Origin: Bacteroidales bacterium
GTDB lineage: Bacteria; Bacteroidota; Bacteroidia; Bacteroidales; M50B96
Direction: 5' to 3'
DNA: 60,225 bases
Assembly (NCBI GenBank): GCA_021740905.1
Contig: JAIOYV010000040.1
Location: 1-60,225 of the forward strand
The notes beneath the pieces are model-generated. The model worked only from the letters and a program-made list of their open reading frames with translations. It was not told where the DNA came from and made no database searches. Below are positions 11,027-32,006 of the stretch, in pieces (positions within the stretch are counted from its first letter, which is position 1; every line of letters begins with the position of its first letter). A program made the translations under genes and the position numbers.

Positions 11027-13189
11027 TTATATTTCAAGCGCAGGGTCATTTTCTTTTAAAAAACGCAAACAGCTCTTTGCCATGATTTGCTTCGCCTCTT
11101 TTTTTGATGGAGCCATGGCCTGATTTTCAAAATCCTCCTCTTTGATCCTCATCTTCATCGTACCCAGAAAAATTTGTTTTCCTTCTACGATCTCTTCCGA
11201 AAATGAAAAAATAGGCCTGAACCATTGCTTGTTATGGCAAAGTTCATAGAGGATTGCCAGAGGTGATTTTCCATCTTTTACTAGTTTCTTCTCTTTTTTC
11301 ACTTCAGTAAATAAGGGATGCTCTTGTTGCAACCATTCAAGACAGGCCAGGGCTGCCATATTTTTTGCCCTCGCTTTACTTTTTTGAACTGAAGTAAATA
11401 GTACATCATTACCCTTTACAGTTGCTACACAAGTACAAATAAACCGGGGTCTATCATCCGGGCCTTCTTTTTCGAAGGTATATTCGGGTTGTCCCAAATC
11501 AGGGTTTGAGGCAGCTATACTGGCGAGTTTCCCCGTCCAATTGCCTTGTCTGTACGGCTTTATTTTATGATTTAATCCGGAAAAGTTTTCTGGTTTTTCC
11601 ACCTGGCTTGCGTCGACCAGCGTATTTTGAACCCATGCTTTTAGAAATTCGCTACTGGCTTTTGCTACTGCATCTTTTTTGCTCGCAGCCTGCGAATAGG
11701 ATGCACACGACACCTTCACTCCATCTACTATCCCAATTATCCTACACATAAAACCACTTGCCACATTTACGGTTATAGGGTGATACTCTGAGAGTGGAAA
11801 TTTCTTCTGGGTAGAAATATTTAAGACCATCCTGGGATACCCCTCTTTTTCGAGGGCATATTCCAATATTTGTTCCTTGATTTCTTTCCATTGGGCAGGA
11901 GTACGTTTTGGGACAAACAGGATGTAAAGAATATTTCCCGGATCTATATTGTTTTGACCGATCCTTTTTTGCACTGCATACCTAAAACTTTTCGGTACCT
12001 CTTCCAACTGGCAGGCCTGGAGTACAACACGTGTAAATTCGCGCGAAGAAATATCATAAAGGGCATTTACCTCTTCACGTCCCAAAAGATCGTTTGCCTT
12101 TTTGGTGGCGCGTACTTTTTCGTGTTGCGACCGTGCCTCGCGTTCTTCCTCTGTTTTAGCATTTATGGATAATGCCAGTTCGAAAAGCTGATGCTTCGAA
12201 AAGGGTAGTTCGGAATTCGTAATGTGAGCCTTTATCTGATAGTGGTTCACCATGTCGGCAAAGCGTCGTATGGGCGAAGTAAGGTGAGTGTAGGCAATCT
12301 CGTTCAGTCCGAAGTGGCCCTTTAATTCCGGGCCATAGTCGGCACGGTTAAACCAAAGTGCTGTCCGGTTATTGTGCGTATCGACCTGGCCGTACCCGGC
12401 GAGCAACTGGTTTACCTGGGCCAGTATTTCTTCCCGGTCGGGGGCATTTTGTCGTACGGTATGGTTACGGAAAAGGATTGGGACATCCTGCCCGGCCAGG
12501 TGCATGGCCACGGCCTTGTTGGCCATAATCATCAGCTCCTGAATCAGGATGTAGCCCCGGTTGGCTTTATCGGCCGATAGTCTTTGAATCTGTCCCTCCT
12601 CGTTGGTGAAGATTCCTTTCTTAATGTCGTAAATAGCCAACGCCCCGTTTTGCCTTCGTAACTTATGCAGGGTGTTGGCAATTTTGAATAAGGTTGAAAT
12701 GTCATCGAAGTGTTCATCTTCTATCTTTTGGGTAACAATCTGGTCGATCTCCAAAAAACTATACCGGCGGATGTTCTTAAAGCTGGTATGTTTTATATCG
12801 ACCGAAAGTATTTGCGCCACAGGACTAAGTTCCACCTCAAAAGTAACCGTTGGCCTGATCTCATTTTCGAGCAGGCTGAGTTTGTGTTCCGAAAGGCTTT
12901 GGGGCATCATTGGGATATTAAAAGCCGACAAGTAGAGAGTATGTACCCGCTTTTTTGCCTCGAAGTAAACCCGTGAATCGAGGGGTATCAGAGCGGCCAC
13001 ATCAGCTATGGAAACCTGAAGGATGAAGTTTTGCCCCATCCGTTTCAACGAGATGCCATCGTCCAAATCTTTCGAATGGGGCGCATCAATGGTGAACCCT
13101 TCAATGAGTTCGCGCTCAAAAAGTGCATTGTCCGGTTTAATGGAGGCTGCTTCAAGAAAGGTGTCGTTGTCGAAATTTGCGAATGTCAT
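11027..13189 (-). CDS. RNB-family exoribonuclease with three dsRBD-like domains
   Basis: A 720-residue predicted 3'-5' exoribonuclease. The RNB core (residues 28-335 from this start) has the four metal-binding Asp residues in IDAPHSKDLDDG (D35, D41, D43, D44, spaced as in RNase II) and the RNA-gripping motif YTHLTSPIRRFADM near residues 300-313. The N-terminal cold-shock domains of RNase II/R are missing and no S1 domain is visible. Instead the C-terminal part has three segments of dsRNA-binding-domain shape, at about 445-520, 550-622 and 641-713, each ending in the characteristic Lys/Ala helix (SKKDAVAKASSEFL, SKARAKNMAALACLEWL, SKKEAKQIMAKSCLRFL). I prefer ATG 13189; 13240 is possible. A role in degrading structured RNA is inferred. 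Confidence 0.85.
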   Translation of the reverse strand: MTFANFDNDTFLEAASIKPDNALFERELIEGFTIDAPHSKDLDDGISLKRMGQNFILQVSIADVAALIPLDSRVYFEAKKRVHTLYLSAFNIPMMPQSLSEHKLSLLENEIRPTVTFEVELSPVAQILSVDIKHTSFKNIRRYSFLEIDQIVTQKIEDEHFDDISTLFKIANTLHKLRRQNGALAIYDIKKGIFTNEEGQIQRLSADKANRGYILIQELMIMANKAVAMHLAGQDVPILFRNHTVRQNAPDREEILAQVNQLLAGYGQVDTHNNRTALWFNRADYGPELKGHFGLNEIAYTHLTSPIRRFADMVNHYQIKAHITNSELPFSKHQLFELALSINAKTEEEREARSQHEKVRATKKANDLLGREEVNALYDISSREFTRVVLQACQLEEVPKSFRYAVQKRIGQNNIDPGNILYILFVPKRTPAQWKEIKEQILEYALEKEGYPRMVLNISTQKKFPLSEYHPITVNVASGFMCRIIGIVDGVKVSCASYSQAASKKDAVAKASSEFLKAWVQNTLVDASQVEKPENFSGLNHKIKPYRQGNWTGKLASIAASNPDLGQPEYTFEKEGPDDRPRFICTCVATVKGNDVLFTSVQKSKARAKNMAALACLEWLQQEHPLFTEVKKEKKLVKDGKSPLAILYELCHNKQWFRPIFSFSEEIVEGKQIFLGTMKMRIKEEDFENQAMAPSKKEAKQIMAKSCLRFLKENDPALEI

Positions 13190-13343
13190 TGTCTGTACCT
13201 GTTTTGGAACAAAAGTATTGATTATACAAGCTTCAGGCAAATTTCCGTGAATGGAAAAAAGGGATAGTCAAAATAACAATTGAATCTATTTTGAATTCAC
13301 ACACAATCATCTTATTTTTACAGAAGTTTTTAGATAAACAAAA

Positions 13344-13420: not shown

Positions 13421-14866
13421 TTAGTTTTTAACCCACCTCCCAGACAATATTTCCTTCTCTTTGGTGAAAATCTTAAAAACATACATTCCTGTAGGCAAGT
13501 TTTGGGTATTGATAGTATTGTTACCGTTTTGTATTTCCTTGTACAGGCAGGCCTTGCCGTTCAGGTCAAACAATTCGATTCGGTTTTTTTGTTCGGGCAA
13601 GCGCACATCCAACATAAAATAATCCCTGCCGGGGTTGGGATATATCTTTACTTCCATAAGGCTGTGTGGGATTTCGGGGCTGGAGAGAAACTCGCCGTTG
13701 GGGCCAATTTTGGCCATCATCAAATCGAGCTTGTTTTCGGGGTGGGCAAAATCCCATCTCGAGCCAAATAGATAACAGCCACCATCTGCCGCTGTATCAA
13801 GGGTCCAAAGCATATAATAATTATCGCCCCCGATAAACTTCTGCCATTGAAGGTTTAGGTTCGAATCGAGTTTGTTTATAACAATCCAGGTTGTGTCGGT
13901 TGGGTTTACATAAATATTGAAATTGATGATACCACCCAGGTACATTTCTTTATTGTGATTCATTACCAGGTTCTGGAAAGCTCCGGGTTGTGTTACGGTA
14001 TCTTCTTTTCCATACCAAAACTCATTTAAAACATTGCCAAGTGTATCCATTTCGACTACCCCAAGATATCTCCCACTGTCAAACTGATAAAGTTTCTTGT
14101 GCCCGGAGGCGACAAAAGTTGAATCGGTAAGCCAAAATGCACTGTTTTTATTAGAGGGCAACAATGAAAAAAAGGTGTCCACTTCAAGATCATAGGTGAA
14201 TTTTACCACTTGATTATACGTATTGATAGAAGGTTGCTGGTTAAAATATTGTGACTCAAGAAAACAATAATATCCATTCTTGCCCTTTAAGATATCCATT
14301 GCATACTCTAATCCGGGAAAATCAATCCATTTGAAATCAATTGAATCACCGATCTGATTTATCCGGAAAAAGAACTCTTTAGAGTTTGCCGGGTCTGCTG
14401 AATTACATCCGAAAATTAGGATGTTTCCATCAGCATCCTTGCAGTGGTTTAATAAAGCTATTCCATAATCATCAAAAATATAATTATTGTTTTCAAGAAT
14501 ATTCAAGCTGGTATCGAATAATATAACCCAAGTTGTGGATACATTTAAATCATAATTATAACTTTTTCCTACTCCCAGTATTTTATTGTTGTCAACTTTT
14601 ATAAGATGATGAATACCATTGAAATTAACCTCATCCAATATTATAGAATCGACTAAATTTCCTGTAATTGCATATTTATTTATTTGGCTGTATGCAATTG
14701 TATCATTCAACAATTTCGTAATGCTAAGAAATAAAGATGAATTGACAGTAATAGAAGCATTTAACCCACTACTTTTATTTTCAATAAATACTTTGTAAAA
14801 GGAAGATTGAGCAAAAACACAATTTAATAATAAGCTGAACAAGATAGTAACAAGTAATTTTTTCAT
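13421..14866 (-). CDS. T9SS cargo protein, beta-propeller-like (copy 1)
   Basis: A 481-residue secreted protein. The signal peptide is MKKLLVTILFSLLLNCVFAQ, which fixes the start at 14866. The body consists of repeated beta-strand units with motifs such as WVILFDTSLNILE and KLDSNLNLQWQKFIGGD, suggesting a beta-propeller. The last 80 residues (from VKIYPNPGRDYFML to LSGRWVKN) are a type A type IX secretion sorting domain, so the protein should be exported and attached to or released from the cell surface. It is a paralogue of the gene at 16047-17498; the sorting domains are nearly the same while the middle has diverged. Its function is unknown. Confidence 0.88.
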   Translation of the reverse strand: MKKLLVTILFSLLLNCVFAQSSFYKVFIENKSSGLNASITVNSSLFLSITKLLNDTIAYSQINKYAITGNLVDSIILDEVNFNGIHHLIKVDNNKILGVGKSYNYDLNVSTTWVILFDTSLNILENNNYIFDDYGIALLNHCKDADGNILIFGCNSADPANSKEFFFRINQIGDSIDFKWIDFPGLEYAMDILKGKNGYYCFLESQYFNQQPSINTYNQVVKFTYDLEVDTFFSLLPSNKNSAFWLTDSTFVASGHKKLYQFDSGRYLGVVEMDTLGNVLNEFWYGKEDTVTQPGAFQNLVMNHNKEMYLGGIINFNIYVNPTDTTWIVINKLDSNLNLQWQKFIGGDNYYMLWTLDTAADGGCYLFGSRWDFAHPENKLDLMMAKIGPNGEFLSSPEIPHSLMEVKIYPNPGRDYFMLDVRLPEQKNRIELFDLNGKACLYKEIQNGNNTINTQNLPTGMYVFKIFTKEKEILSGRWVKN

Positions 14867-14929
14867 ACCAGTATATTTAGATTGCTCCCTGGAATGCAAA
14901 AAGCATTTCAGGGAGCAATCTATTAAGCA

Positions 14930-15961
14930 TTAATTAAATCCAATAAATGAAGAACATACACCAAGTATATATTTCCTATAATAGAAATCAGCTTTATGTC
15001 CAAGATTATAATCCCCTGATGGGAACGACATATAACTTTCACCTATTTCCATAGACATAAAATGCCATCCTGTACCTTGCGGCATATTATCAAGCATTTC
15101 CGCTCTGGTGCCAGATGTATGGCAGTTCATTTCTTCGGGGCTTAAACAGGTATGGAATGTGCCGTATAATTGATTTTGTGGATTTGAACGGTACGCATTC
15201 CAAAACAGGCGATAATCACAAATATTATCTAAAGGGTTTCCAGTTCCTGTACAAATTGTTTCACCGCCGTTAATTTCGGCCCATTCGGTTTGGATAGTAA
15301 TAGTATGGGCAATAGCGGGGTAAGACCAGTTTATATGTTGGGTTATCAATATCCCAGCATCCAAATACTCATAGCCTGAGTATGTCCCACATTTTCCACC
15401 AGAGTTATTAGCACCACCTGTATAAGCCCAATAATCAGTATCTCCAAATATTGGCACCTGAAACGACCCGCTCCCATAACCAATGTAACTTCGTAAAACG
15501 AATGTAGCTTCTTGATTTTCGATCCCTTTACTTTCCACATCAACAATAACCATATATTTTGTTGTGTCGTCGGTAACCACAGTATCCCAAAAATCTTGTA
15601 AACTGTCGATCATTGCCTGGTATAAATCGTTGTAATCCCTTGCAATAACCATGTTGTTGTCATCTACATCAATGTTCAATTCACAAAAATAGGTTTTCGA
15701 ATACAAATGCTCGTGGTTGGCATCACAATAATAATAGTTAATGTCGGCTTCTGTGTACCAAACCACACTGTCGACCGATAAGGGCCTGTCAATCTTTAAA
15801 TTGCCAGTAACTGCTTCGTGAAAACCAGTGATCTTCGCAACAATTGCACTGCTTTCGTTCCCACCCACAGGGTCATTTTGCTGAATAGCATCTTTGTCAC
15901 AACTTGTAAGCCCAAGGCCTACTACTAATCCAAATAGGATCATTGTCTTGATTTTAATCAT
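14930..15961 (-). CDS. Lipoprotein paired with T9SS cargo (copy 1)
   Basis: A 343-residue predicted lipoprotein with lipobox LTSC at residue 20. After the linker comes IVAKITGFHEAVTGNLK and then SVDSVVWYTEADINYYYC, phrases shared with the paralogue at 17554-18570. Later shared blocks include DYNDLYQAMIDSL, KCGTYSGYEYLDAGILI and GNPLDNICDYRLFWNAY. Many aromatic residues suggest a ligand-binding beta fold, but I do not recognise the family. It lies just upstream of T9SS cargo copy 1 and is probably co-transcribed with it. A hairpin element precedes its start. Confidence 0.8.
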   Translation of the reverse strand: MIKIKTMILFGLVVGLGLTSCDKDAIQQNDPVGGNESSAIVAKITGFHEAVTGNLKIDRPLSVDSVVWYTEADINYYYCDANHEHLYSKTYFCELNIDVDDNNMVIARDYNDLYQAMIDSLQDFWDTVVTDDTTKYMVIVDVESKGIENQEATFVLRSYIGYGSGSFQVPIFGDTDYWAYTGGANNSGGKCGTYSGYEYLDAGILITQHINWSYPAIAHTITIQTEWAEINGGETICTGTGNPLDNICDYRLFWNAYRSNPQNQLYGTFHTCLSPEEMNCHTSGTRAEMLDNMPQGTGWHFMSMEIGESYMSFPSGDYNLGHKADFYYRKYILGVCSSFIGFN

Positions 15962-15987
15962 AATAATAAATTATTTAGTTAAACAAA

Positions 15988-16038
15988 ACCGGGCGCGGCC
16001 TGCAAAAAATGTAAGAGTAGCTGCGAACCGCACCCGGC
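15988..16038 (-). ncRNA. Conserved hairpin element, copy B
   Basis: Read on the minus strand, arms CCGGGTGCGGTTCGC and GCAGGCCGCGCCCGG pair at 14 of 15 positions including wobbles, around a loop containing the conserved ACTCTTACATTTTT. The sequence TTTTGTTT follows, so it looks like an intrinsic terminator or attenuator. It lies between T9SS cargo copy 2 and lipoprotein copy 1. Confidence 0.65.
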
Positions 16039-16046
16039 ATAAATTT

Positions 16047-17498
16047 TCAATTTTTAACCCATTTCCCCGACAATACTTCTTTCGTATTGCTGATAATTTT
16101 AAATACATACACACCTGAAGGCAATTTTGATGTGTTTATGGTATTGCTACCATTTTGGATATCCTTTTGCAAACAGCACTTACCGTTCAAGTCGAACAAT
16201 TCAATTCGGTTTTTTTGTTCGGGCAATCGTACATCCAACATAAAATAATCGCTGCCGGGGTTGGGATATAGTTTTACTTCCATTAGGCTTTGTGGGGTTT
16301 CGGGGCTGGAAAGGAATTCTCCGTTAGGGCCAATTTTAGCAAGATAAAGATCTAAGTCATCGTTGCCATTTAAAAAGTCAATTGCAAATCCAGTTAATAA
16401 ACAAGATCCATCTTCTATAACATACATTGAGAACACTTGGTAAAATTTATCTCCACCAATAAACTTTTGCCATAAGGGATTCAAGTTTGAATCAAGCTTA
16501 ATTAATACAATCCATGAAACATCAGTAGTATAGGGTAAATGAAAATTTAAAACTCCACTATAATATATATCACTATTGTGAAATCCAAGATTGTTGTATG
16601 CAGTAGGTTGAATTATTGTATCGGGTTGCCCCCAATAATACTCGTTAATAACTGTATCAGATAAACCAATAATAGAAACCCCAATTTTTTCTATATAATC
16701 GGTGGAGAGTGGAGATGTTGAAAAATTTCTATGCCCTGAAGCGATAAAACTGGTGTCATTAAACCACTCTACTGAAGCGTTCCTAGTATTATGTGTAGTC
16801 CCAAGGATTTTTAATACTTCAAAATTATAATCCACCTCTACAATAGATGTTTTACCTTCATTATAGTTCAGTCCTGGCCAAATACTAAAAAGATAATAAC
16901 CATTACTGTTTTGGGTCTCAAGTATGTCAGAAGCAAAATGGAGTCCTGGAGTATCATATATTTTCGCAAACAATGAATCTCCATCCTGGTTTAATCTAAA
17001 AATGAAATTCTTCCATAAATTAATAGGATCCATAGTGTTACAAAACAGGATGACATTCCCATAACTATCGGTAATGGAATTGAATATCGCAATATGCGAT
17101 AACCCTGTATGGTATAAGTGTTCGTCAATTACATTAAGCGATGTATCCAATTCCAATACCCAAAGATCGTATATATCTACTCCTGTCCAATAATCTCCAA
17201 ATGCCAAAAGGGTTCCATCGTCGCACAAATGAAGTTTCTGAATGTTTGTATATTCATCACTATTATTTGGAAATTCAACCTTGTCAATTACATTGCCATC
17301 CGCATTGAATTTATAGAGTTCAGGAAACCAGGATGTATCGTTTCGGGACAATACAGGTAGAAGAGTGTTACCCGATTCAAGAACTAAAATATCTCCTGCC
17401 GCCTTATTTGTTCCATCATCATAAATATTAAAATATGTACTTTGGGCAATCAAGGTCATAGGAAGAAAAAGTATAAATATTGAAATATGTTTTTTCAT
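16047..17498 (-). CDS. T9SS cargo protein, beta-propeller-like (copy 2)
   Basis: A 483-residue secreted protein and paralogue of the gene at 13421-14866. The signal peptide is MKKHISIFILFLPMTLIAQ. The body has the same repeated units, for example LWVLELDTSLNVID and KLDSNLNPLWQKFIGGD. The type A sorting domain spans about residues 400-483 and ends LSGKWVKN. Compared with copy 1 the sorting domain is almost unchanged while the first 380 residues are much more divergent. It follows lipoprotein copy 2 by 55 bases and should share its transcript. Confidence 0.88.
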   Translation of the reverse strand: MKKHISIFILFLPMTLIAQSTYFNIYDDGTNKAAGDILVLESGNTLLPVLSRNDTSWFPELYKFNADGNVIDKVEFPNNSDEYTNIQKLHLCDDGTLLAFGDYWTGVDIYDLWVLELDTSLNVIDEHLYHTGLSHIAIFNSITDSYGNVILFCNTMDPINLWKNFIFRLNQDGDSLFAKIYDTPGLHFASDILETQNSNGYYLFSIWPGLNYNEGKTSIVEVDYNFEVLKILGTTHNTRNASVEWFNDTSFIASGHRNFSTSPLSTDYIEKIGVSIIGLSDTVINEYYWGQPDTIIQPTAYNNLGFHNSDIYYSGVLNFHLPYTTDVSWIVLIKLDSNLNPLWQKFIGGDKFYQVFSMYVIEDGSCLLTGFAIDFLNGNDDLDLYLAKIGPNGEFLSSPETPQSLMEVKLYPNPGSDYFMLDVRLPEQKNRIELFDLNGKCCLQKDIQNGSNTINTSKLPSGVYVFKIISNTKEVLSGKWVKN

Positions 17499-17553
17499 AG
17501 AAACAGATTTAAAATTGCCTCCATCAATAGCGATGGAGGCAAAATTAATTATT

Positions 17554-18570
17554 TTAAAATTCTAAAACAGGAGCTGGTACTTGTGTGGAATATGGTTTTC
17601 CATATTTGAATTGACCTAAATGAAAATACACAGGGTCTGATAAAGAAAAATATGTTGGATAAAGATTTATAAAAATATTATCATATTCACTTGGATTTGG
17701 ATTATTATCATCGTAAACGTAATCCGTTCCATTGTAATAAAAATTCATTTCATCAGGGTCTAAACATAAATCACATTGTTCAAAACCAGAAGGCAATGGA
17801 CTATTAATATAATCTACGCTATGATACAATCTATAATCACAATAATTATCCAATGGATTTCCGGTAACTGGTGCTAATGGATAATAAGTAGGGAAAACTT
17901 CCTCAAAATATACAATGTCAGTATAGGCGATATACTGTTGTAGGCCTGTTTGTGAACGGATTTTATTTGCAATAAGAATTGCGGCATCTAATCCTTGATA
18001 ACCTGAGTATGGGCCGCATTTACCTCCCCCAAAACCATAAACCCAATAGTCTTCATCACCAAATTCATCAGGAGTGTACATACCTGCCCCATATCCAATA
18101 GCTCCAACCATCTTTAGAGTTGCTATCCCATCATTTACCGATTTAATGGAAACATCTACCACAACCATATACATGGGGTCTTCATCAATAGAATGCCAAT
18201 AATCGCCAAGGCTGTCGATCATAGCATCGTAAAGATCGTTGTAGTCTCTCGCTTCTACCATATCGTATTCATCTGTTTCTACTTCAAGCAGAAAAGAATC
18301 CAATATTGTGTAATTATACTCTTCGTAAGGCACACAATAATAGTAGTTGATGTCGGCCTCGGTGTACCAAACCACACTGTCAACCGACAAGGGACGGTCG
18401 GTTTTTAGGTCTCCGCTCACAGCTTCATGGAACTGCGTTATCCTGGCAACTATGGCCTTGCCATTGTCCAGAGGGGTAGAGGCCGGTTGGTCGGCAGCCT
18501 CTTTTACACAACCCGTAAGCCCCAGGCTTACTACTAATCCAAATAGGATCATTGTCTTGATTTTAATCAT
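17554..18570 (-). CDS. Lipoprotein paired with T9SS cargo (copy 2)
   Basis: A 338-residue predicted lipoprotein with lipobox LTGC at residue 21. The first 70 residues are nearly identical to copy 1, including MIKIKTMILFGLVV and SVDSVVWYTEADINYYYC. The middle and C-terminus diverge, though GKCGPYSGYQGLDAAILI and GNPLDNYCDYRLYHS are kept. Together with the next gene it forms a two-gene cassette that is duplicated in tandem. Its function is unknown; conserved Cys residues (CGPYSGY, CDYRLY, CDLCLDPDE) may form disulfides. Confidence 0.8.
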   Translation of the reverse strand: MIKIKTMILFGLVVSLGLTGCVKEAADQPASTPLDNGKAIVARITQFHEAVSGDLKTDRPLSVDSVVWYTEADINYYYCVPYEEYNYTILDSFLLEVETDEYDMVEARDYNDLYDAMIDSLGDYWHSIDEDPMYMVVVDVSIKSVNDGIATLKMVGAIGYGAGMYTPDEFGDEDYWVYGFGGGKCGPYSGYQGLDAAILIANKIRSQTGLQQYIAYTDIVYFEEVFPTYYPLAPVTGNPLDNYCDYRLYHSVDYINSPLPSGFEQCDLCLDPDEMNFYYNGTDYVYDDNNPNPSEYDNIFINLYPTYFSLSDPVYFHLGQFKYGKPYSTQVPAPVLEF

Positions 18571-21578: not shown

Positions 21579-24500
21579 ATGAATAAGCTTTTTAAGATCA
21601 CCGCCATTTTGTTGGTTTTGCTTTTTTCGCAGAGCTTGCAAGCTCAGGTTTATTACGGGCCTGATGCAAACCAAAAAATCCAGGGGAGCGAAACTGTTCG
21701 CGTGTCAGCCCGGACCGATATCCCCACTTACATCAAATTTCGGGAAGCCGACCGCTTTCAATATTCCTTTCTCGAAAGTTACCTAAAAAAGCAATTCCGG
21801 TTAAGCACCGATTTCAGCCTGCGAAATTACCAGACCGACAAGGATGCAATGGGTGGAACGCTTTACCGGTACGTTCAGCTATTCAAAGGAGCCGAAATCA
21901 ATGATGCACGCATCAACGTATTGGTTGAAAATGATCAGGTGGCAAGCATTAGTGGTTTTTTGTACAACAACATCCAGCTACAAAACACCCCTATGATCAG
22001 CAAGGAAACAGCCTTTCAAAATGCTCTTTTGGAAGTTCCGGCAGAAGTGTACAAATGGGAAATCGAAGGGGAGGAAATATTGATTAAAGAGTCGAAAAAC
22101 GACCCGGAGGCTACCTATTGCCCGAAAGGGGAGTTGGTTTTATTTCCTTCGGCATACCCAACCTATAATGGTAGTTACAAGTACGCTTACAAATTCGATA
22201 TTTATGCCGACAAGCCCATCAACAAAAAAGATGTTTTTATTGATGCAGAAAATGGCAAGGTATTGATTACTATCGACCGACTGCTACATGCTGATGTCAC
22301 AGCCACTGCCCTGACAAAATACAGCGGTACCCGGGAAATCACATCCGACAGTTACAATGGCTCCTTCCGTTTGCGCGAAACAGGCCGGGGCAATGGGGTC
22401 GAAACCTACGATATGAACGAAGGGACCAGCTACAGTGGTTCGGTCGATTTTACCGATGCCGATAACTACTGGAATAATTTCAATACCGATTTCGACGAAG
22501 TGGCCACCGATGCCCATTGGGGCGCCGAGATGACCTACGACTATTTCTTTTACAAACACAACCGAAACAGCATCGACAACAATGGTTTCAAACTAAAAAG
22601 TTATGTCCATTACGATGTTGCCTATTCCAATGCCTTTTGGGATGGTACACGCATGACGTATGGCGATGGCAGCGGTAGTACCACACCATTTACTGCACTC
22701 GATATTTGCGGGCATGAAATTGCCCATGGACTTACTACTTTTACGGCCGACCTGGATTATGCCTACGAATCGGGTGCACTGAACGAAGCATTCAGCGATA
22801 TATTTGGGGCCTCGATAGAATTTTATGCCAAGCCCACCATGGCCAACTGGTTGATTGGCGAAAATATTGGGTCGGTGATCCGTTCCATGTCGAACCCAAA
22901 CCTATACAACCAGCCCGATACCTATCATGGGAATTCCTGGTATTTCGGTTCCGACGACAATGGTGGTGTACACTATAATTCTGGCGTGCTAAACTATTGG
23001 TATTATTTGGTTTGCCAGGGAGGAAGTGGGACAAACGATCTCGGAAATCCCTTTTTAGTAACTGGTATTGGTATGGATGATGCCGGAAAAATTGCCTTTC
23101 GCACCTTGGTTACTTATCTCACCAACAGCTCGCAGTACGAAGATGCCCGGTTTTATTCTATCATAGCTGCCATCGACTTGTTTGGTGCCTGTAGCGCTGA
23201 GGTTGAAGCCGTGACCCGTGCATGGTATGCAGTGGGGATAGGCTCAAATTATGTGAATTATGTAATGAGCGCTTTTACGTCCGATTTTCAACAGTTTTGT
23301 TCGGCTCCGGCAGTAGTCAATTTTCAGAATATGTCGGTAAATGGGACTATTTTTACGTGGGATTTTGGCGATAACAGTACTAGTACCAGCCTTTCGCCCA
23401 GTCACATTTACAGCAACTATGGAACTTATAGCGTTAGCCTTATGAGCGATGGTGGCACTTGTGGCTCCGACACCCTGGTACAAACCGCCTATATCAACAT
23501 AGACCCGTCCAATCCTTGTGTCGAAATATTATCGCCAACCGCACAGTTCAACACACAAACCTCTTGTTTTGGAACCCTGTTCGACAGTGGAGGGATGGAC
23601 AATTATCAGGATAATACCGATTATTCCATCACCATAGCTCCGGTTGGGGCGTTGAATGTGACACTTACTTTTATTAGCTTTAATTTTGAAATAGGATACG
23701 ACTATCTTTATGTTTATGATGGTCCCTCTACCAGCAGCACCCTTATCGGGCAATACGATGGGGCAAGCCTTCCCAATTTAGGGACGATAACCTCCACAGG
23801 GCCTTCCATAACCATCCGCCAAGTTACCGACCCGGGTGTTACAGAGTCTGGTTTCGAACTCGACTGGGCCTGCAATTTTGCCAACACTGCCCCTGTTGCC
23901 GATTTTAATGTCGATCAGGAGGAAAGCTGTTCGGGCGATGTCTTTTTTCACGATATGTCGGCCAATGGTGCCACTTCCTGGTTATGGGATTTTGGTGATG
24001 GAAGCACATCTTCTTTCCAGCACCCATCGCACAGCTATTCGAGCAATGGCGTTTTTACTGTGCAATTAATTGCGACAAATGCTTTTGGAGCCGATACTGT
24101 TATCAAGATTAATTATGTGTCGGTTATCAACCCGGAAGTCCCTGTGGCTGTGCTAGCCGAAAATTGTGGCCCTGCCAGTTTTGACCTTACCGCCACCGGT
24201 TTTGGTTTGAAAGCGTGGTTTGCCGATACCCTGGGCGAGAACCTATTGCATGTTGGCGATACTTTCACCACCCCCAACCTTACCCAGAGCACCGAATATT
24301 ATGTGTCGGCTTATGCCCTGAGCGAACCCGACAAGGCGGGTAAAACTAATAATTCAGGCAGTGGGAACTATTTTACTAATAATGGGGAGCATTATCTCGT
24401 TTTCGATTGCTATGCCCCAATGCGCTTGCTATCGGTGAAAGTATATGCAGGAAGCAATGGAAACCGCACCATATCGTTAAACGATGAAAACGGAAATACC

Positions 24501-25295
24501 CTTCAACAAAAAACAGTATTTATTCCCGGAGGGGAAAGCAGGGTTTATCTTAACTTCAACATTCAACCAGGGGTGAATTATCAATTGGCAGGCCCCTCGG
24601 CCCCCGACTTATTCCGTAATGATAATATGGTGAATGAATACCCCTTTACCCTAAATGGTGTTGCAAGCGTAAAATACAGCTCGGCCTCATCATCCCCAAC
24701 AGGTTATTATTATTATTTCTACGATTGGGACGTGATGCAGGGCATCTGCGAAAGTGACCTGGCACTGGTAATGGCTTACATCCAGGATCAGGTGGTTCAA
24801 GCCGGGTTCAGTTTTCAGGGCGATAGCGGGACCATTACGTTCACCAACACCTCGATTGACGGCACCTGGTTCGAATGGGATTTTGGCGACGGGCTAATCA
24901 GCAACGATGCCAACCCTGTCCATCACTATAGCCAGGTTGGGACATATCAGGTATCATTAATTGCCTCGAACGCCTGCGGACAAGATTCCGTTTTGCAAAC
25001 CGTTGACATTACCATTACGGGTTTTGAAGATGGGGTGGAAGAAGCCCAGTTTAGCTTGTACCCAAACCCTAATGTTGGTATTTTTAATTTGAACTATTCC
25101 ATCGCCAATGGCTCGCAGGAAGTTTCCATCGAAGTATTTAACTTGTTGGGCGAAAGGGTTTATTTTAAAAAGTCGATGGTTTATTCTGCAAAAAACAGCG
25201 AGCGCATCGATTTAAGCAACCATGCCAAAGGGATATATCACATCAGGTTGTCGAACGGAGGTTTTATCCGGATAGCAAAGGTTGTCATTCATTAG
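21579..25295 (+). CDS. Secreted M4 (thermolysin-like) metalloprotease with PKD, CUB and T9SS domains
   Basis: A 1238-residue zinc protease for extracellular protein breakdown. After the signal peptide (to about residue 22) comes an FTP/PepSY-type propeptide (to about 230), then the peptidase domain with HEIAH at 379-383 and the third ligand Glu403 in GALNEAFSD, spaced exactly as in thermolysin. Then follow PKD-like domain 1 (about 575-640, TWDFGDNST), a CUB domain (645-765, YDYLYVYDGPS), PKD 2 (770-850, LWDFGDGST), an Ig-like and a beta-sandwich region, PKD 3 (1075-1145, EWDFGDGLI) and a type A sorting domain (1158-1238, YPNPNVGIFNL). It should leave through the type IX system. A terminator follows. 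Confidence 0.93.
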   Translation: MNKLFKITAILLVLLFSQSLQAQVYYGPDANQKIQGSETVRVSARTDIPTYIKFREADRFQYSFLESYLKKQFRLSTDFSLRNYQTDKDAMGGTLYRYVQLFKGAEINDARINVLVENDQVASISGFLYNNIQLQNTPMISKETAFQNALLEVPAEVYKWEIEGEEILIKESKNDPEATYCPKGELVLFPSAYPTYNGSYKYAYKFDIYADKPINKKDVFIDAENGKVLITIDRLLHADVTATALTKYSGTREITSDSYNGSFRLRETGRGNGVETYDMNEGTSYSGSVDFTDADNYWNNFNTDFDEVATDAHWGAEMTYDYFFYKHNRNSIDNNGFKLKSYVHYDVAYSNAFWDGTRMTYGDGSGSTTPFTALDICGHEIAHGLTTFTADLDYAYESGALNEAFSDIFGASIEFYAKPTMANWLIGENIGSVIRSMSNPNLYNQPDTYHGNSWYFGSDDNGGVHYNSGVLNYWYYLVCQGGSGTNDLGNPFLVTGIGMDDAGKIAFRTLVTYLTNSSQYEDARFYSIIAAIDLFGACSAEVEAVTRAWYAVGIGSNYVNYVMSAFTSDFQQFCSAPAVVNFQNMSVNGTIFTWDFGDNSTSTSLSPSHIYSNYGTYSVSLMSDGGTCGSDTLVQTAYINIDPSNPCVEILSPTAQFNTQTSCFGTLFDSGGMDNYQDNTDYSITIAPVGALNVTLTFISFNFEIGYDYLYVYDGPSTSSTLIGQYDGASLPNLGTITSTGPSITIRQVTDPGVTESGFELDWACNFANTAPVADFNVDQEESCSGDVFFHDMSANGATSWLWDFGDGSTSSFQHPSHSYSSNGVFTVQLIATNAFGADTVIKINYVSVINPEVPVAVLAENCGPASFDLTATGFGLKAWFADTLGENLLHVGDTFTTPNLTQSTEYYVSAYALSEPDKAGKTNNSGSGNYFTNNGEHYLVFDCYAPMRLLSVKVYAGSNGNRTISLNDENGNTLQQKTVFIPGGESRVYLNFNIQPGVNYQLAGPSAPDLFRNDNMVNEYPFTLNGVASVKYSSASSSPTGYYYYFYDWDVMQGICESDLALVMAYIQDQVVQAGFSFQGDSGTITFTNTSIDGTWFEWDFGDGLISNDANPVHHYSQVGTYQVSLIASNACGQDSVLQTVDITITGFEDGVEEAQFSLYPNPNVGIFNLNYSIANGSQEVSIEVFNLLGERVYFKKSMVYSAKNSERIDLSNHAKGIYHIRLSNGGFIRIAKVVIH

Positions 25296-25352
25296 GCTGT
25301 GAATAGGTCAAATGATGAGTACGACTAGATAGAATATGGATTACGATTGGCT

Positions 25353-25403
25353 AGAACACAGCCTCTCCCAAAAAAATCGGGGCAGGCTGTGTTCTGTTTT
25401 TTT
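25353..25403 (+). terminator. Strong intrinsic terminator after the M4 protease
   Basis: Twelve perfect base pairs (AGAACACAGCCT with AGGCTGTGTTCT) plus inner CCC/GGG pairs around an A-rich loop, followed by a T run. It closes the M4 protease transcript before the adhesin operon. Confidence 0.9.
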
Positions 25404-25465
25404 GCCCAAAATTTCGGTAAATGCTTATTATTTATCATATTTACAAAAAATATAAAAGTATTTAT

Positions 25466-25502
25466 AAAGACACACAACCATTTACCGGTTGTTGCGTCTT
25501 TA
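25466..25502 (+). promoter_or_regulatory. Leader hairpin before the adhesin operon
   Basis: The arms TAAAGACACACAACC and GGTTGTTGCGTCTTTA pair with one bulge and one mismatch, 22 bases before the first ATG of the operon. No T run follows, so it is not a simple terminator; it could stabilise the transcript or affect translation. Confidence 0.45.
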
Positions 25503-25524
25503 GGGAAATTTCAAAAATATCAGT

Positions 25525-25917
25525 ATGAAAAAAATGCGTGTTTTGATTACAGTTATGATGATGATTACATCATTAAGCCTTGTGGCACAAAATGAAAAGA
25601 GTTTAATTGCTGAGTTTAAAACGGCCGATGAAGTGTTGGTCTCGAAAGATGGAAAGACAAGCAGCAATTTTACAGTTACAATAGATAAAAAAGGGTTGGA
25701 GGAAATGCAGCGCAAGGCTGAAGATTTCGGGACATCCATGCGCCTTTCGGTTACACCCGACAAAGAGCAGAATGATAAATACTCGATGAGCCTGCAGTTT
25801 GACCACGAAGCCCAGTATGCTGAGATTTACAAAATAGTCCTGTATTTTGGATTTTCGGGAGTAAAAATAAATACCGAAGAGTTCGCTCTCGACCATTTGT
25901 TAAACATCAAAAAATAA
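25525..25917 (+). CDS. Small exported protein, first gene of adhesin operon
   Basis: A 130-residue protein with a cleavable signal peptide (MKKMRVLITVMMMITSLSLVAQ). The mature part has a short beta/alpha pattern with a Lys/Asp-rich segment (EVLVSKDGKTSSNFTVTIDKKG) and no Cys. I do not recognise a family. It ends five bases before the first of three giant adhesin genes, so co-transcription is very likely; a periplasmic helper or surface partner for the adhesins is a guess. A start at the second Met (25534) is also possible. Confidence 0.7.
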   Translation: MKKMRVLITVMMMITSLSLVAQNEKSLIAEFKTADEVLVSKDGKTSSNFTVTIDKKGLEEMQRKAEDFGTSMRLSVTPDKEQNDKYSMSLQFDHEAQYAEIYKIVLYFGFSGVKINTEEFALDHLLNIKK

Positions 25918-25922
25918 ACATC

Positions 25923-28856
25923 ATGAAAAAGTTATTAACAAGTCTTTTGTTCATCCTTTTTATTTGTCAGGGTTGGTTGATGGCGCAACCTATAAAGCTG
26001 GTAATACCGAACAGCGACACAACTATATGTATGGGTACAAGTGCATTGCTTGAGTGTCAATTTGACACCATGCTTTATGAAACGACCTCTTACACATTTA
26101 ACCAGATCCCCCATAATCCTTTGCCATTGATTGGCACTTCGGTGGCAAGCCCCTTGGTAGATGACCATTATTGGGGACCCTTCCCGATAGGTTTTGAGTT
26201 TTGTTTTTTTGGACAAACCTATACTCAATTTTATGCTGGTGCAAATGGTTGGATTTCATTTCAACCATTGAGTAGCCTCACGTACGACCCCTGGGTCACA
26301 CAAGCAATCCCAAACCCCGACCCTTCTAGGCCACGGGCTTGTGTTATGGCCCCTTATCGCGATTGGTACCCAGGTACCGGGGCGGTGGGTGATATTAAAT
26401 ATGCTACTGTAGGCAATCAGCCGGGCAATAAAAAACTGATCGTAAGTTGGATTGATGTCCCTCTCTTTTCCTGTACAGGTACCCACGGGACTTTTCAGGT
26501 TGTTTTGCATCAATCATCCAATTATATCGATAATCATTTAATTAGTGTACCTACTTGTCCGGGCTGGAATTCTGGCAACGGGGTTCAAGGTATACAAAAT
26601 GCACTGGGTACACAAGCCTATGTGGTTCCGGGCCGGAACAATACCAACTGGCAGGCATCGGCCGAGTCATGGCGTTATAAACCAAACGGCCCTCCCCAAC
26701 CCCAGGTATTTTCATGGACCGCAAACGGACAGGCCGCAGGAACCGGTAGTACATTGTTGGTAACGCCACCAACCACAACCCAATACATAGTAAATTATGA
26801 ACCATGCGGTAATTTTGTTTTTGCAGATACAGTAACAGTGACTCCTGAGCCTTGTGGCTTTTTGACCATTTCGTCTACCGATGCCATCTGTAATGGACAA
26901 GCTTCGGGAACGGCTACAGTTGTAGTCAGCGAAGGGATTGCCCCTTTTGATTTTTCCTGGACCGATATGTTTGGGAATACTGTTGGTACCACATTAGCAT
27001 CGACCGATTCGGTGAATACGATCACGAACCTGTTGGCAGGTACCTATTATGTTACAGTATCGATGCTGGGTGGGGCGTACGACCTTACTGAAACCATTTC
27101 ACTCGGAGAGCCGCAAGCCGTCATCGTTAGCTTGGCTACCACGCCTGAAACCTGCCCAGGAGCAGGAGACGGAACGATTACCTCCTCTGTCACAAATGGG
27201 ATTCCTCCTTTTGTTTTTGCTTGCCAGGGACAGCCAAGCTCGTTTCCTACTAATGTTAACTCATTCACCTTCGAAAACCTGCCAAAAGGAAACTATAACT
27301 TAACGATTACCGATGTGAATGGTTGCCAGGGGACTGGCCAAATCGAAGTGGCGGAACTCCATTTGGAATTTACCACTTCTCAATCGGAAATTAAATGCCA
27401 TGGCGATACCAATGCGCTAGCTTATATTTCGGTTACAGGTGGGGTTACCCCATACATTTATACATGGTCGCCAATTGGAGGGAACGCACCGGGTATTACC
27501 AATTTAGGGGCAGGTACTTATTTTGTGACTGTAACCGATGAGAATGGTTGTGCGGTAAATACGTTCCTTACATTTGCCGAACCACCACCTGTAAGTATAT
27601 ATACATCAGCCGATAAAACGATATGTTATGGACAATCGGCCAATATTACATCGACGGCTTTGGGAGGGACTACTCCATATAATTACATTTGGACACCTGG
27701 AGGGTATATCACCCAAAGTATTACTGTAGATCCAATAGAATCAGACGAATACTGTGTGTCGGTAACCGATGCTTTTGGTTGTCCAAGTGCTACGAAGTGT
27801 ATTTCGGTTTTTGTAAATCCGGTTCTTGAAATCGAAGCCGATGTCAAAGACGACACTATTTGCCAGGGAGATACCACAAGTATTTTTGCTCATTTGTCCG
27901 GTGGCGACGGTGGCCCTTATTTATTCCAGTTATACAATGGTCCTATTGTTTCACCTCCCTTTAAGGTATCGCCTGATATTACAACCAAATACATAATTAT
28001 TGGAAGCGACAATTGCAATACCCCAATCGTAAAAGACACGGTTCAGATTATTGTTAAGCCCGCTCCCTTTATCAATATCACATCGAGCAAAACAAAAGGG
28101 TGCCAGCCTCTTACTATCCAATTTTCGGAAAATAGCCCCGATGTTGGCCAAACTTATTTATGGGATTTCAGCGACTCTGACATCTATAATTATTCGGCTA
28201 GCAAAAATCCGGTGCATGTATTTCAAAACCCAGGAATCTACGAGGTTAGCTTAAAGGTTATTTCGCCTTGGAATTGTACTTCCGAAGCACAGCACCACGA
28301 AGATATTATCGTTTACCCAAAACCAATATCTTTGTTTTATGCCGATCCTGTGGTAACCAATATCATCGACCCGATTGTCAGCTTTAGCAACCAATCAGTT
28401 GATGTGCATACCTCGCGATGGGCGTTTGGCGATGGTGATTCGGTAATTGCTCACACTCCCTATCCACACAGTTTCCCTCCCGAACCTGGGAAATTTACAG
28501 TTTCGCTGATTGCAATAACTGCTGAAGGTTGCCGCGATACATCTTATCAAACTATTACGATTGAAGAAAAAGATGACATATTCTATATCGCAAATGCCTT
28601 TAACCCTTATAGTAATGTTGATGGAAATACCATTTTCAAACCGGTTATCAGTTTGTTGGATGAAAATTCGTACCATTTTTATATCTACAACAGGTGGGGC
28701 GAACTGATCTTTGAAACAAACGATATTGATGTGGGCTGGGACGGAACTTATGGTTCCGATGCGTGTCAGGTCGGTTCGTACACCTGGTTGGCTATTTTCC
28801 GGGACTTAAATGGCAAGGATTACCGTAAAACAGGAACGGTGACCATTGTGAAATAA
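25923..28856 (+). CDS. SprB-like surface adhesin 1, T9SS type B
   Basis: A 977-residue exported protein. Signal peptide to about residue 21 (GWLMAQ). Residues 50-260 are a beta-sandwich with a nidogen-like flavour (FCFFGQTYTQFYAGANGWISF, then a W-rich strand pair). From about 310 to 640 come SprB-type repeats (for example GIAPFDFSWTD, GGVTPYIYTWSP, VTDENGC) with Ig-like units. PKD domains follow (YLWDFSDSD, WAFGDGDS). The last 90 residues (YIANAFNPYSNVDGN, FYIYNRWGELIFET, GWDGTY, GTVTIVK) are a type B sorting domain, the gliding-associated C-terminal type. It should be displayed at the surface for adhesion or gliding-like motility. Confidence 0.9.
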   Translation: MKKLLTSLLFILFICQGWLMAQPIKLVIPNSDTTICMGTSALLECQFDTMLYETTSYTFNQIPHNPLPLIGTSVASPLVDDHYWGPFPIGFEFCFFGQTYTQFYAGANGWISFQPLSSLTYDPWVTQAIPNPDPSRPRACVMAPYRDWYPGTGAVGDIKYATVGNQPGNKKLIVSWIDVPLFSCTGTHGTFQVVLHQSSNYIDNHLISVPTCPGWNSGNGVQGIQNALGTQAYVVPGRNNTNWQASAESWRYKPNGPPQPQVFSWTANGQAAGTGSTLLVTPPTTTQYIVNYEPCGNFVFADTVTVTPEPCGFLTISSTDAICNGQASGTATVVVSEGIAPFDFSWTDMFGNTVGTTLASTDSVNTITNLLAGTYYVTVSMLGGAYDLTETISLGEPQAVIVSLATTPETCPGAGDGTITSSVTNGIPPFVFACQGQPSSFPTNVNSFTFENLPKGNYNLTITDVNGCQGTGQIEVAELHLEFTTSQSEIKCHGDTNALAYISVTGGVTPYIYTWSPIGGNAPGITNLGAGTYFVTVTDENGCAVNTFLTFAEPPPVSIYTSADKTICYGQSANITSTALGGTTPYNYIWTPGGYITQSITVDPIESDEYCVSVTDAFGCPSATKCISVFVNPVLEIEADVKDDTICQGDTTSIFAHLSGGDGGPYLFQLYNGPIVSPPFKVSPDITTKYIIIGSDNCNTPIVKDTVQIIVKPAPFINITSSKTKGCQPLTIQFSENSPDVGQTYLWDFSDSDIYNYSASKNPVHVFQNPGIYEVSLKVISPWNCTSEAQHHEDIIVYPKPISLFYADPVVTNIIDPIVSFSNQSVDVHTSRWAFGDGDSVIAHTPYPHSFPPEPGKFTVSLIAITAEGCRDTSYQTITIEEKDDIFYIANAFNPYSNVDGNTIFKPVISLLDENSYHFYIYNRWGELIFETNDIDVGWDGTYGSDACQVGSYTWLAIFRDLNGKDYRKTGTVTIVK

Positions 28857-28874
28857 ATTTGTAATGAAAAAACA

Positions 28875-31800
28875 ATGACAATGAAAACAAAAATATTAAT
28901 CCTAATGCTGGTGTTTGGCTACAGCCTTTCATATAGCCAAAACCTTTCGGTGAGTATGGCTGCAACCCCGCAGGCTATGGCAGAAAGCATAGTTAGTGGT
29001 TGTATGGAGGTTTCCAATGTAACCTATACAGGAGGACCCAATGCACGAGGGACATTTTCCAATGGACAATCACTTGGCCTTACAAATGGGGTGATCCTTA
29101 GCAGTGGAAATATTATGAATGCACCCGGGCCAAACAACACCGGATCTTCGAACTGGAACAATTGGCAACCGGGTGATCCTACGTATACTGCCGTATTTGG
29201 AACCAATACCGATGCAGCCGTACTTGAGTTCGATTTTATTCCCCATTCGAATTATGTGCAATTTAAGTATGTGTTTGCCTCCGAAGCCTACACCGAAATG
29301 ATCAATACCAATCCGTATGGGGTAGGGGTATTCGTGAACGGTCCTTTCCCCGGCGGAACGCCACCTTCTTATGTGGATTATAATATTGCATTGACACCCG
29401 ACTTTACCGGATTACAAGTCAATATTGATAACCTGAATTATGCAGTACCTGCCGGTGGTGCTTACTACATCAACAATTTTATGGGTTTGAATTGCCAGTA
29501 CGATGGTTATTCAGTGCCTCTTCAAACTGGCCCACAGCAAGAAGGTTTGGCCGTTATTCCTTGTCAGACGTACCACATGAAGATTGTGGTGCCCGATGTG
29601 GGGTCTATGCCTCATTGGGATTCTGCCATTTTGATTGAAGCCGGGAGTATGCAATCCGATTTTTTCCTTACGGTTGAAAATTATACCACATCGGGATCGA
29701 ACACCGATATTTCGGAGAGTTGCACCAATCAATTGGTCGTAATCAGGGGCGACCCTTTAAACACCGACCCGTTTCCATTTACAATTACAATAACAGGGAC
29801 GGCTACTGCTGGTGTTGATTTTACAGGCATAACATCAGGTAATTATGTGATCCCTGCTACCTCAACTCTTGTTACGATTCCTTATACCGCATTGTTGGAT
29901 GGCCTTACCGAAGGGATCGAGACCATTATTTTTACCTTTACCCATGCCAGTGTGTGTGATTCGCTTTGCACGGCATCTTATGAATTAGTTATTGATGTGT
30001 TAGATAACTGGGAACTTGAAGCAGGGATCGTTCAAAACGATACGGGCATTTGCTCGCAACAAACAAACTTTTTTCAGATACAAACTTATATCCCACCTTC
30101 AATGGATCCCAATTTGGTTTTCTATGTGTGGAATACCGGGCACACATCACCAAATATTACCATACCACCACCGGTGGGCGCTAAAACTGAGTATTCCGTG
30201 AAAATTACGGATATTTGTGGACAGGTGGTTTATGACACAATCAATATTACCAACTCCGATTTCACCGACATCCAAATTGGCGTGGTCGACGTACCATGTT
30301 ATGGGCTCGATTCGGGCCAGGTTACCGTAAATACCGTAAATGGGATGGGCCCTTTTACATATGAATGGGATCCTCCAGGTCTTGGATCAAGTACATCGGG
30401 CGATATTGTTAGTTTACCAGCTGGGTCTTATCATGTTACTGTGACCGACTCGGTGGGTTGTTCAATTTCAGATCCGTTTGTGGTGCATCAGCCCGATTCT
30501 ATTTATGACAACCTAACCGTTTACAATGCCAGTTGCCACGACTCCATTGATGGCTCTATTTTTTATGAAACCTTCAACGGAGTCAATCCATTCACCTTTC
30601 AGTGGTCGAATGGTGAAACCACTCCAAGTCTGAGTCATTTGGCTGCGGGCAGCTATTCTGTGACCGCCTCCGATCATAATGGCTGTAAGGTAACTGCCTC
30701 CGGGACAATTTTAGAACCAGAGGTTTTGAACATCTTTGCTTCACCTGATTTAACTATATGCGAGGGGCAAACTATTCAGCTAAGTGCCTATGCTACGGGT
30801 GGCACACCTATTTATACCTTCTATTGGGGTGGTGTCGCTGCCGGGTCAAGTATCAGCATCACGCCATATAACTCGAACACCTACAAGGTAATGGTTAGAG
30901 ACCTGAACGGCTGTGAGAGTAAAACCGAATTTATTGAAATCAATTTATTCCCTCCCATATCATTGCAATTGCACGCTCTGGAGGACTCGATATGCCAAGG
31001 CGAAAGCACAACCATTTTTACGAGCATCCAGGGTGGGACAGGGGGACCTTATATTGCTAAATTCAGCGATGGTGCCAGTTCGGAATTATTGCCCCCACCC
31101 TACATTGTGAAACCAGATAAAACGACTACGTATGAAGTTTGGATCGATGATTTTTGCCATAGCCCATCAGGACACCAAACTATTACTATTGAAGTTTTTA
31201 AACCGCCAAAGATTGAAATTAAGGCCGACATCACATCAGGTTGCCGACCAGTAACTGTGTCTTTCGAAGATCTTTATTATGAAGATGGTAAGGATTACCA
31301 TTGGGACTATGGCGATGGCAGCAATGAAATATTGGCCATTCTACCAAACCCCTCGCATACTTATGTTATTCCTGGTCGTTTCGATGTGACACTCACTGTT
31401 ACTTCGGCAGCAGGATGCGTGAATGAAGTTGTGGCAGAAGAGTTGATTGACATATATCCTATCCCAAAAGCAAGGTTTCACCCCGAGCCAGCTATTACAA
31501 GTATTGTCGACCCTCAGGTATTTTTCAATAACGTATCGGATGGGGCGACGATCAGTACATGGGATTTTGGAGATGGATCCGACACATCGAATGCTGTAAA
31601 TGGCAAAAATGTGTATCACGCGCTGGGCGAATATCTAGTGACCCTGGTTGTTGAAAACGAATACGGGTGTACCGATAAAGCCGAAGGCATTGTGACTATC
31701 CGTAGCGAATATACTTTTTATGCCCCCAGTGCTATAAGCCCCAATAGTTTGGTTTCTGAAAACAAATACTTTATGGCAAGCGGCGTGGGTATCGATCCGA

Positions 31801-31994: not shown

Positions 31995-32006
31995 TAAACA
32001 ATATAT

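Follow-up and report, generated by a model that had tools for sequence, protein, structure and literature searches.

RNase R (E. coli rnr; structures from B. subtilis and M. genitalium) joins the RNB catalytic domain to cold-shock domains (CSDs) and S1, with an HTH domain as well in the E. coli enzyme, and Dis3L2 joins it to OB domains and CSDs. RNase III and Dicer-type enzymes couple double-stranded RNA-binding domains (dsRBDs) to a ribonuclease with a catalytic domain unlike RNB; RNase III is an endonuclease. The usual plan of the RNB family is given as CSD-RNB-S1 in the available text of two reviews (PMC12320835, PMC10240344). Passages of two papers describe RNase R (PMC12320835) and Dis3L2 (PMC10023572) as unwinding and degrading structured RNA, with Dis3L2 gripping the duplex by its OB domains and having to move its CSDs (PMC10023572). 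The odd RNB plans named in excerpts of the RNase R review are Dss1, Ssd1 and the minimal enzymes, D. radiodurans RNase II and H. volcanii RNase R having minimal accessory domains, and the term 'dsRBD' occurs 0 times in this review (PMC12320835).

Here we analyze an RNB protein with three dsRBDs, encoded in a 60,225-nt stretch of DNA (contig JAIOYV010000040.1, hereafter the window) from a Bacteroidales bacterium. Its RNB domain shares the fold and active site of RNase R (VIA-align Z ~39) and the fold of Dis3L2 (Z 33-38), for which a wedge-type opening of the duplex has likewise been proposed. In contrast to RNase R, the window protein has neither CSDs nor S1, and carries a helical module and three dsRBDs instead; in contrast to Dis3L2, it is without both OB domains and CSDs and its wedge segment is shorter. 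The minimal RNB enzymes D. radiodurans RNase II and H. volcanii RNase R likewise have few accessory domains (PDB 2r7d, Z 33.8), and two minimal plasmid RNB proteins (L135, L136) carry HTH or RNase_II_C_S1 domains, not dsRBDs. The likeness to RNase III lies in the dsRBDs (dsRBD2 against the Aquifex RNase III dsRBD, Z 11.2). No description of RNB-dsRBD proteins was found in full texts of open-licence PMC papers, among the matches listed, which agrees with an earlier, sequence-only reading of this DNA that knew of no family with such a plan; the scattered bacterial-archaeal RNB-dsRBD group is apparently undescribed. The available text of a paper on Zam treats two cyanobacterial RNB clades, and the words 'dsRNA' and 'Acaryochloris' occur 0 times in the paper (PMC9145284).

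Domain architecture of the window protein

The reading frame runs on the minus strand from an ATG at 13189 to a stop codon ending at 11027, where the sequence-only reading had placed it. The features of the gene are as follows.

11027..13189 (-): gene for the RNB exoribonuclease with three dsRBDs, 720 aa (ORF, Pfam, model)
13097..13189 (-): N-terminal lead-in, residues 1-31, short and helical (helices 8-16 and 21-25), no CSD match (Pfam, model)
12218..13096 (-): RNB catalytic domain, residues 32-324 (PF00773; VIA-align Z ~39 to RNase R)
13058..13087 (-): metal-binding Asp set D35, D41, D43, D44, residues 35-44, equivalent to RNase II D201/D207/D209/D210 (alignment; 48/48 members)
12932..12934 (-): Y86, equivalent to RNase II Y253, the 3'-end clamp (alignment; 48/48 members)
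12344..12457 (-): position of the tri-helix wedge of RNase R and Dis3L2, residues 245-282, here shortened to two helices (alignment, model)
12263..12280 (-): TSPIRR motif, residues 304-309, with R308 equivalent to RNase II R500 (alignment; R308 in 48/48)
11849..12070 (-): helical module between RNB and dsRBD1, residues 374-447, no Pfam match (Pfam, two models)
11630..11839 (-): dsRBD1, residues 451-520, degenerate, without GPxH, SKKDA kept at helix 2 (models; family HMM E 5e-3)
11321..11539 (-): dsRBD2, residues 551-623, the most canonical (dsrm 568-620; family HMM E 1e-16; VIA-align Z 11.2 to 1di2 and 1yyk)
11048..11263 (-): dsRBD3, residues 643-714, SKKEAK at helix 2 (family HMM E 1e-11; VIA-align Z 11.8 to DCL4 dsRBD2)

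The stop-free frame comprises 746 codons, of which 720 are used, and the nearest alternative start, a TTG at 13240, lies only 17 codons upstream, which leaves no space in which cold-shock domains could be hidden; a truncated gene is ruled out in the same way. In Pfam, PF00773 (RNB) matched residues 32-324 (E 1.5e-62; 212.2 bits vs. a cut-off of 29.3) and dsrm (PF00035) matched at E 1.7e-13 (51.4 bits vs. a gathering score of 23) over two stretches, only the best of which (568-620) was placed, while a DND1_DSRM match to dsRBD3 (E 1.6e-4) fell below the cut-off of that model. The S1, CSD and OB_RNB families were absent from the Pfam matches of the window protein up to E 10, and the structural model has neither room nor matching elements for cold-shock and S1 domains, both of which had been read as missing from the sequence alone. 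The NCBIfam models for RNase R (TIGR02063, an equivalog; 187 bits vs. a cut-off of 597.85) and for RNase II (TIGR02062, 110.1 vs. 641.9 bits; NF003455, 118.7 vs. 542 bits) matched below their cut-offs and through the RNB part, and a seadornavirus dsRNA-binding model matched weakly (25.9 bits vs. 125). A dsRBD HMM built from the family detected all three domains, at residues 478-516 (E 5e-3, weak), 568-617 (1e-16) and 659-708 (1e-11); at the dsRBD1 position of two relatives, L065 and L098, it gave E 2e-6 and 6e-5. PDB sequence matches to the RNB part comprised RNase R, RNase II, Dis3L2, Rrp44/Dis3 and their relatives, and no solved chain covering both RNB and dsRBDs was among the matches listed.

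An AlphaFold2 model built from 48 sequences (mean pLDDT 91.3, pTM 0.69) shows a short N-terminal lead-in, RNB, the helical module at 374-447 and three alpha-beta-beta-beta-alpha units (451-520, 551-623 and 643-714) joined by low-confidence linkers; the model was read for its predicted folds. A second model, restricted to the C-terminal 349 residues, gave the same C-terminal architecture (mean pLDDT 89.8), and an S1 or other OB fold was found in the C-terminal part neither by Pfam nor in the two models. With the full model, Foldseek placed RNase R and Dis3L2 first and the dsRBDs of TARBP2, DRB4 and MLE lower down; with the C-terminal model, the leading matches were TARBP2, DRB4, MLE, Loqs-PB, DCL3/4, R2D2 and ADAR2, weaker matches to LeuA regulatory domains being taken as unrelated. 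VIA-align superposed model residues 3-361 on RNase R with 22-25% identity, and dsRBD2 on several dsRBDs at Z 11-12, including the dsRNA-bound 1di2 and 1yyk (Aquifex RNase III with dsRNA). The domain dsRBD1 was not singled out by VIA-align and is supported by the model and the family HMM. In a search of predicted viral proteins, giant-virus Rrp44-like nucleases were the top matches. Domain search and structure prediction thus bear out three C-terminal dsRBD folds without an OB fold, as the sequence-only reading had expected; the helical module and the shortened tri-helix wedge segment had escaped it.

Active site and wedge segment

Residue equivalences were taken by aligning the protein to RNase II and RNase R of E. 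coli. D35/D41/D43/D44 and R308 align with their RNase II counterparts; the catalytic Asp set and TSPIRR motif are intact, as first read. All six of D35, D41, D43, D44, Y86 and R308 are conserved in 48/48 aligned members, and the active site therefore looks selected for. The position of RNase II Y313 is taken by F145 in the window protein and by 39 Y, 6 F and 3 H among the 48 members. At the position of RNase II E390, all 48 members of alignment A3 have Q, a biased count, as the retrieval pattern for the genome contigs itself required Q there; in alignment A1, made with no such selection, E does not occur, 15/17 having Q, L042 A and L062 S. Both E. coli enzymes, RNase R and RNase II, carry E at this position, as do 23/29 RNase R of relatives (6 did not parse). 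Both E390 and Y313 of RNase II have a role in choosing RNA over DNA.

The wedge segment, measured from H243 to G291, spans 41-54 residues (median 49) in the 48 members; the corresponding lengths are 69 and 70 for two RNase R proteins and 68 for RNase II. In the model of the window protein the helices of this segment lie at 252-263 and 269-279. The length of the segment alone predicts nothing, because the segment is also long in RNase II, an enzyme limited to RNA that lacks extensive structure. In human Dis3L2, deletion of the whole trihelix and linker stops the decay of dsRNA but not of ssRNA, and single-helix deletions gave no such build-up, according to the available part of the study (PMC10023572). 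Since one helix of Dis3L2 can be spared in this way, the shortened two-helix wedge may, by analogy, still be functional.

Members, distribution and phylogeny of the family

A tblastn search of plasmids gave 176 records, ordinary RNase R and RNase II included, of which 6 cover at least 80% of the query. The best nine plasmid rows all come from Acaryochloris, with A. marina MBIC10699 contributing four plasmids and Acaryochloris sp. 'Moss Beach' five, and plasmid-borne relatives occur in Cyanobacteriota, Actinomycetota and Pseudomonadota; of the 26 plasmid regions read, two supplied RNase R and II of E. coli and another four were intended as outgroups. A profile scan of genome contigs, which relied on one short peptide pattern, yielded 56 loci in Ignavibacteriota, Chloroflexota, Bacteroidota, Cyanobacteriota, Methanosarcina, Armatimonadota, Pseudomonadota and candidate phyla, including five (L115-L119) that have no dsRBD. 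Members with two dsRBDs each are carried by two viral contigs, and PHROG 13933 ('nuclease') matches both of these as well as the window protein. None of the 40 records from the phages collection reached 80% query coverage, and a search for close relatives by DNA pattern gave 14 stretches in genome contigs and 7 in viral contigs, none of them confirmed.

Alignment A3 (n = 48) consists of the window protein, 45 of the 56 genome-contig loci and the two viral-contig loci; omitted were L120, the fragments L089 and L114, L068, which is divided between two frames, L081 and L113, which extend past the contig end, and L115-L119, which are ordinary RNB proteins or lack a dsRBD. Pfam finds RNB in 48/48 of these members and dsrm in 46/48, L095 being one of the two without dsrm, and no S1 or CSD family at E<=0.01 in any. 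Among the 65 dsRBD-positive tree rows, the family HMM (per-match E<0.1, a few matches lying near that limit) gives three matches in the window protein and 22 others, two in 34, one in seven and four in one. The same scan found a dsRBD in 0/8 of the RNB proteins that lie outside the group in the tree (L052, L053, L063, L064, L115-L118). Within the group, the scanned ORFs of L095 and L044 gave no dsRBD match; L044, from Frondihabitans, looks split, with the dsRBD part annotated as the next gene. Other broken or split-looking members are those of Rhodococcus pDK1 (L041), R. pyridinivorans with an internal IS3 element (L060), Gloeothece (L058, short) and a Chloroflexi contig (L068). In translations and alignment, the helical module and a dsRBD have apparently been duplicated together on a Streptomyces plasmid (L056:6950-9391) and a Dietzia plasmid (L048:6001-8526), which suggests that the two may form one repeating unit. 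Two near-identical members come from a Crocinitomicaceae MAG contig and from Crocosphaera watsonii (L090 and L092), owing either to MAG contamination or to recent transfer.

Judged by sequence searches, the gene is rare within the phylum. The C-terminal half, used as a single-sequence query, matched 3/395 sampled phylum genomes (its own, G239 and G350), the G350 match lying in a 528-aa frame without dsRBD. Profile A5, which compared with A3 additionally omits L092, L095 and L108, matched 336/395 genomes; among the matches listed, the near-full profile was covered only in the genome of the window and in G239, and the others cover part of the profile, mostly in 240-390-aa frames that presumably represent RNase III dsRBDs. 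Within its own family and order, 55/60 genomes (own included) have a match, and among the matches listed all but the gene itself end by residue 374.

An RNB-only tree of 104 rows, which omits short or fragmentary rows, unites 67 of them (the 65 dsRBD-positive rows plus L095 and L044) in one set with an SH-aLRT of 96. The second RNB-only tree, of 84 rows, also drops L117 and most RNase R rows and adds four RNB proteins; it has 69 rows, L044, L095, L137 and L138 counted in, on one side of a branch with an SH-aLRT of 91, short of the 95 mark. Originally retrieved as outgroups, L137 and L138 were assigned to the group only once a dsRBD match had appeared, in L137 by the family HMM (E 2.7e-5) and not by Pfam, in L138 by Pfam dsrm (25.6 bits). 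The bare dsRBD label needs 3 changes in the 104-row tree and 4 in the 84-row tree because L044, L095, L137 and L138 lie inside the group. The simplest reading of these quick trees, made without Dis3 and archaeal RNase R, is that the group may have arisen once, with subsequent losses and extensive lateral transfer. The four nearest rows of the window protein belong to Chloroflexota and Ignavibacteriota, and the fifth, in the same seven-row set, to Prolixibacteraceae (Bacteroidota).

Genomic context and possible function

The same genome also encodes a canonical RNase R with OB_RNB, CSD2, RNB and S1 (Pfam), so the window protein is an addition and not a replacement. Downstream on the same strand, the gene for a DUF5687 protein starts 18-51 nt away and is followed by an ABC ATPase gene; there is no sign of this arrangement in relatives (66 loci), and a promoter and terminator scan gave nothing useful. 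Elsewhere in the window, two adjacent gene pairs at 13421-18570 (-) look like tandem duplicates, one member of each pair encoding a short lipoprotein-like protein (14930-15961, 17554-18570) and the other a Por-secretion-tail protein (13421-14899, 16047-17498), and the region 21579-35402 (+) encodes four very large predicted secreted proteins of 977-1238 aa, of which three resemble each other at the C-terminal end. In Acaryochloris, on plasmids or contigs, recA copies were seen close to the gene (L039, L045, L047, L075). On the Allomeiothermus silvanus plasmid pMESIL01, a TROVE-domain (Ro-like) gene directly precedes the gene for an HTH-bearing RNB ribonuclease outside the dsRBD group (L135:269-3622).

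The window protein is likely to be an active hydrolytic RNB-family 3'-5' exoribonuclease, of a lineage without CSD/S1 clamps in which the helical module and the tandem dsRBD array would tether structured RNA; its activity, polarity, unwinding, duplex preference, tethering and role we infer from domain content and predicted folds. Its substrate would probably be folded or paired RNA, which it would destroy. The dsRBDs would hold the duplex part of such RNA while the 3' strand threads into the RNB tunnel, where metal ions on D35/D41/D43/D44, together with R308, would cleave one nucleotide at a time, and the shortened wedge beside the tunnel mouth would split the strands. Dis3L2 must swing its CSDs ~70 A to expose the wedge, and here the wedge would be open from the start because no cold-shock domains lie over the tunnel mouth. 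This explanation is favored by the RNB and dsrm matches with no CSD or S1 family, by the invariant active-site residues, by the high-confidence model with three dsRBD folds, by the Foldseek and VIA-align matches to RNase R and to dsRNA-bound dsRBDs and by the retention of dsRBDs across the group; against it count the weak dsRBD1 without GPxH, F145 at the Y313 position, a wedge ~20 residues shorter, and L095 and L044 without dsRBD match. The earlier view that dsRBDs have replaced the OB-fold clamps holds, but not its premise that RNB enzymes are simply single-strand enzymes, as RNase R and Dis3L2 are described in the available text as degrading structured RNA (PMC12320835, PMC10023572). The contrast therefore lies in how the duplex is held, not in whether it is handled, and, given its domains, it is reasonable to expect that the protein may be specialized for RNA that is structured or double-stranded.

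A wider proposal, which we put forward tentatively and hold to be somewhat doubtful, is that this undescribed bacterial-archaeal lineage represents a duplex-directed 3'-5' exoribonuclease without OB-fold clamp, whose permanently open wedge and dsRBD array would let it engage and degrade RNA that is double-stranded or highly structured, and that it might be spread by plasmids and viruses as a means of controlling duplex RNA (antisense pairs, interference, foreign dsRNA).

Another possibility, which we regard as rather unlikely, is that plasmids and some viral contigs carry the enzyme as a tool to clear antisense-sense or other duplex RNA, in copy control, interference or counter-defence; it is compatible with the exoribonuclease explanation above and would add a role to it. 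The presence of matches on four plasmids of A. marina MBIC10699 and five of 'Moss Beach', ParA-like neighbors at 6/66 loci and the two viral contigs would fit such a role. However, the abundance of plasmids is no measure of preference, because plasmids make up the whole of one of the two main collections searched; the ten neighbor genes scanned in the window include no plasmid marker, and a Methanosarcina member sits on a 917-kb contig. Neither are the neighbors consistent, and the defence models of PADLOC-DB 2.0.0 (E<=0.1) gave 0 families for 5/5 members tried.

It is also conceivable, though unlikely, that the dsRBDs serve mainly as addressing or dimerization modules, in which case they would bring an RNase R paralogue to rRNA, to ribosomes or to a protein partner, and there would be nothing special about its duplex unwinding. 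The leading VIA-align matches of dsRBD2 and dsRBD3 do include dsRBDs of protein complexes (DRB7.2:DRB4, Miranda/Staufen dsRBD5, Dicer-TRBP, and DCL4 dsRBD2 with DRB4), yet dsRBD2 matches dsRNA-bound dsRBDs too, at Z ~11 (1di2, 1yyk). The GPxH motif is absent from most family dsRBD matches, being present in 30/147 (KKxAK-like motif in 69/147; near-copies included in both counts), and several family dsRBDs may be structural or protein-binding. Against recruitment by a partner, no convincing conserved partner gene was found over the 66 loci, the commonest neighbor clusters being response-regulator-like (7 loci) and ParA-like (6 loci). That the protein is an ordinary RNase R or II whose dsRBD resemblance arose by chance or by mis-calling is highly improbable, for although its RNB half has a normal RNB fold and dsRBD1 is weak by sequence, the idea is contradicted by the dsrm match at E 1.7e-13, by dsrm in 46/48 members and S1 or CSD in none, and by the confident alpha-beta-beta-beta-alpha folds.

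With the duplex-tethering exoribonuclease as the preferred explanation, the anatomy given by the sequence-only reading was right, and its guess at function appears reasonable. New here are the helical module, the short wedge, and the RNB-dsRBD family with the grouping of its RNB domains and its occurrence in bacteria and archaea as well as on plasmids and viral contigs. If the explanation is true, the ability to degrade duplex RNA from its 3' end would also make the enzyme a useful reagent. The existence of RNase R-like enzymes in cyanobacteria is called unclear in the available part of a review (PMC10989914), and the cyanobacterial members found here are direct candidates. A natural lineage with dsRBDs in place of clamps would provide a ready test of clamp function, and of whether the wedge alone may open a duplex.
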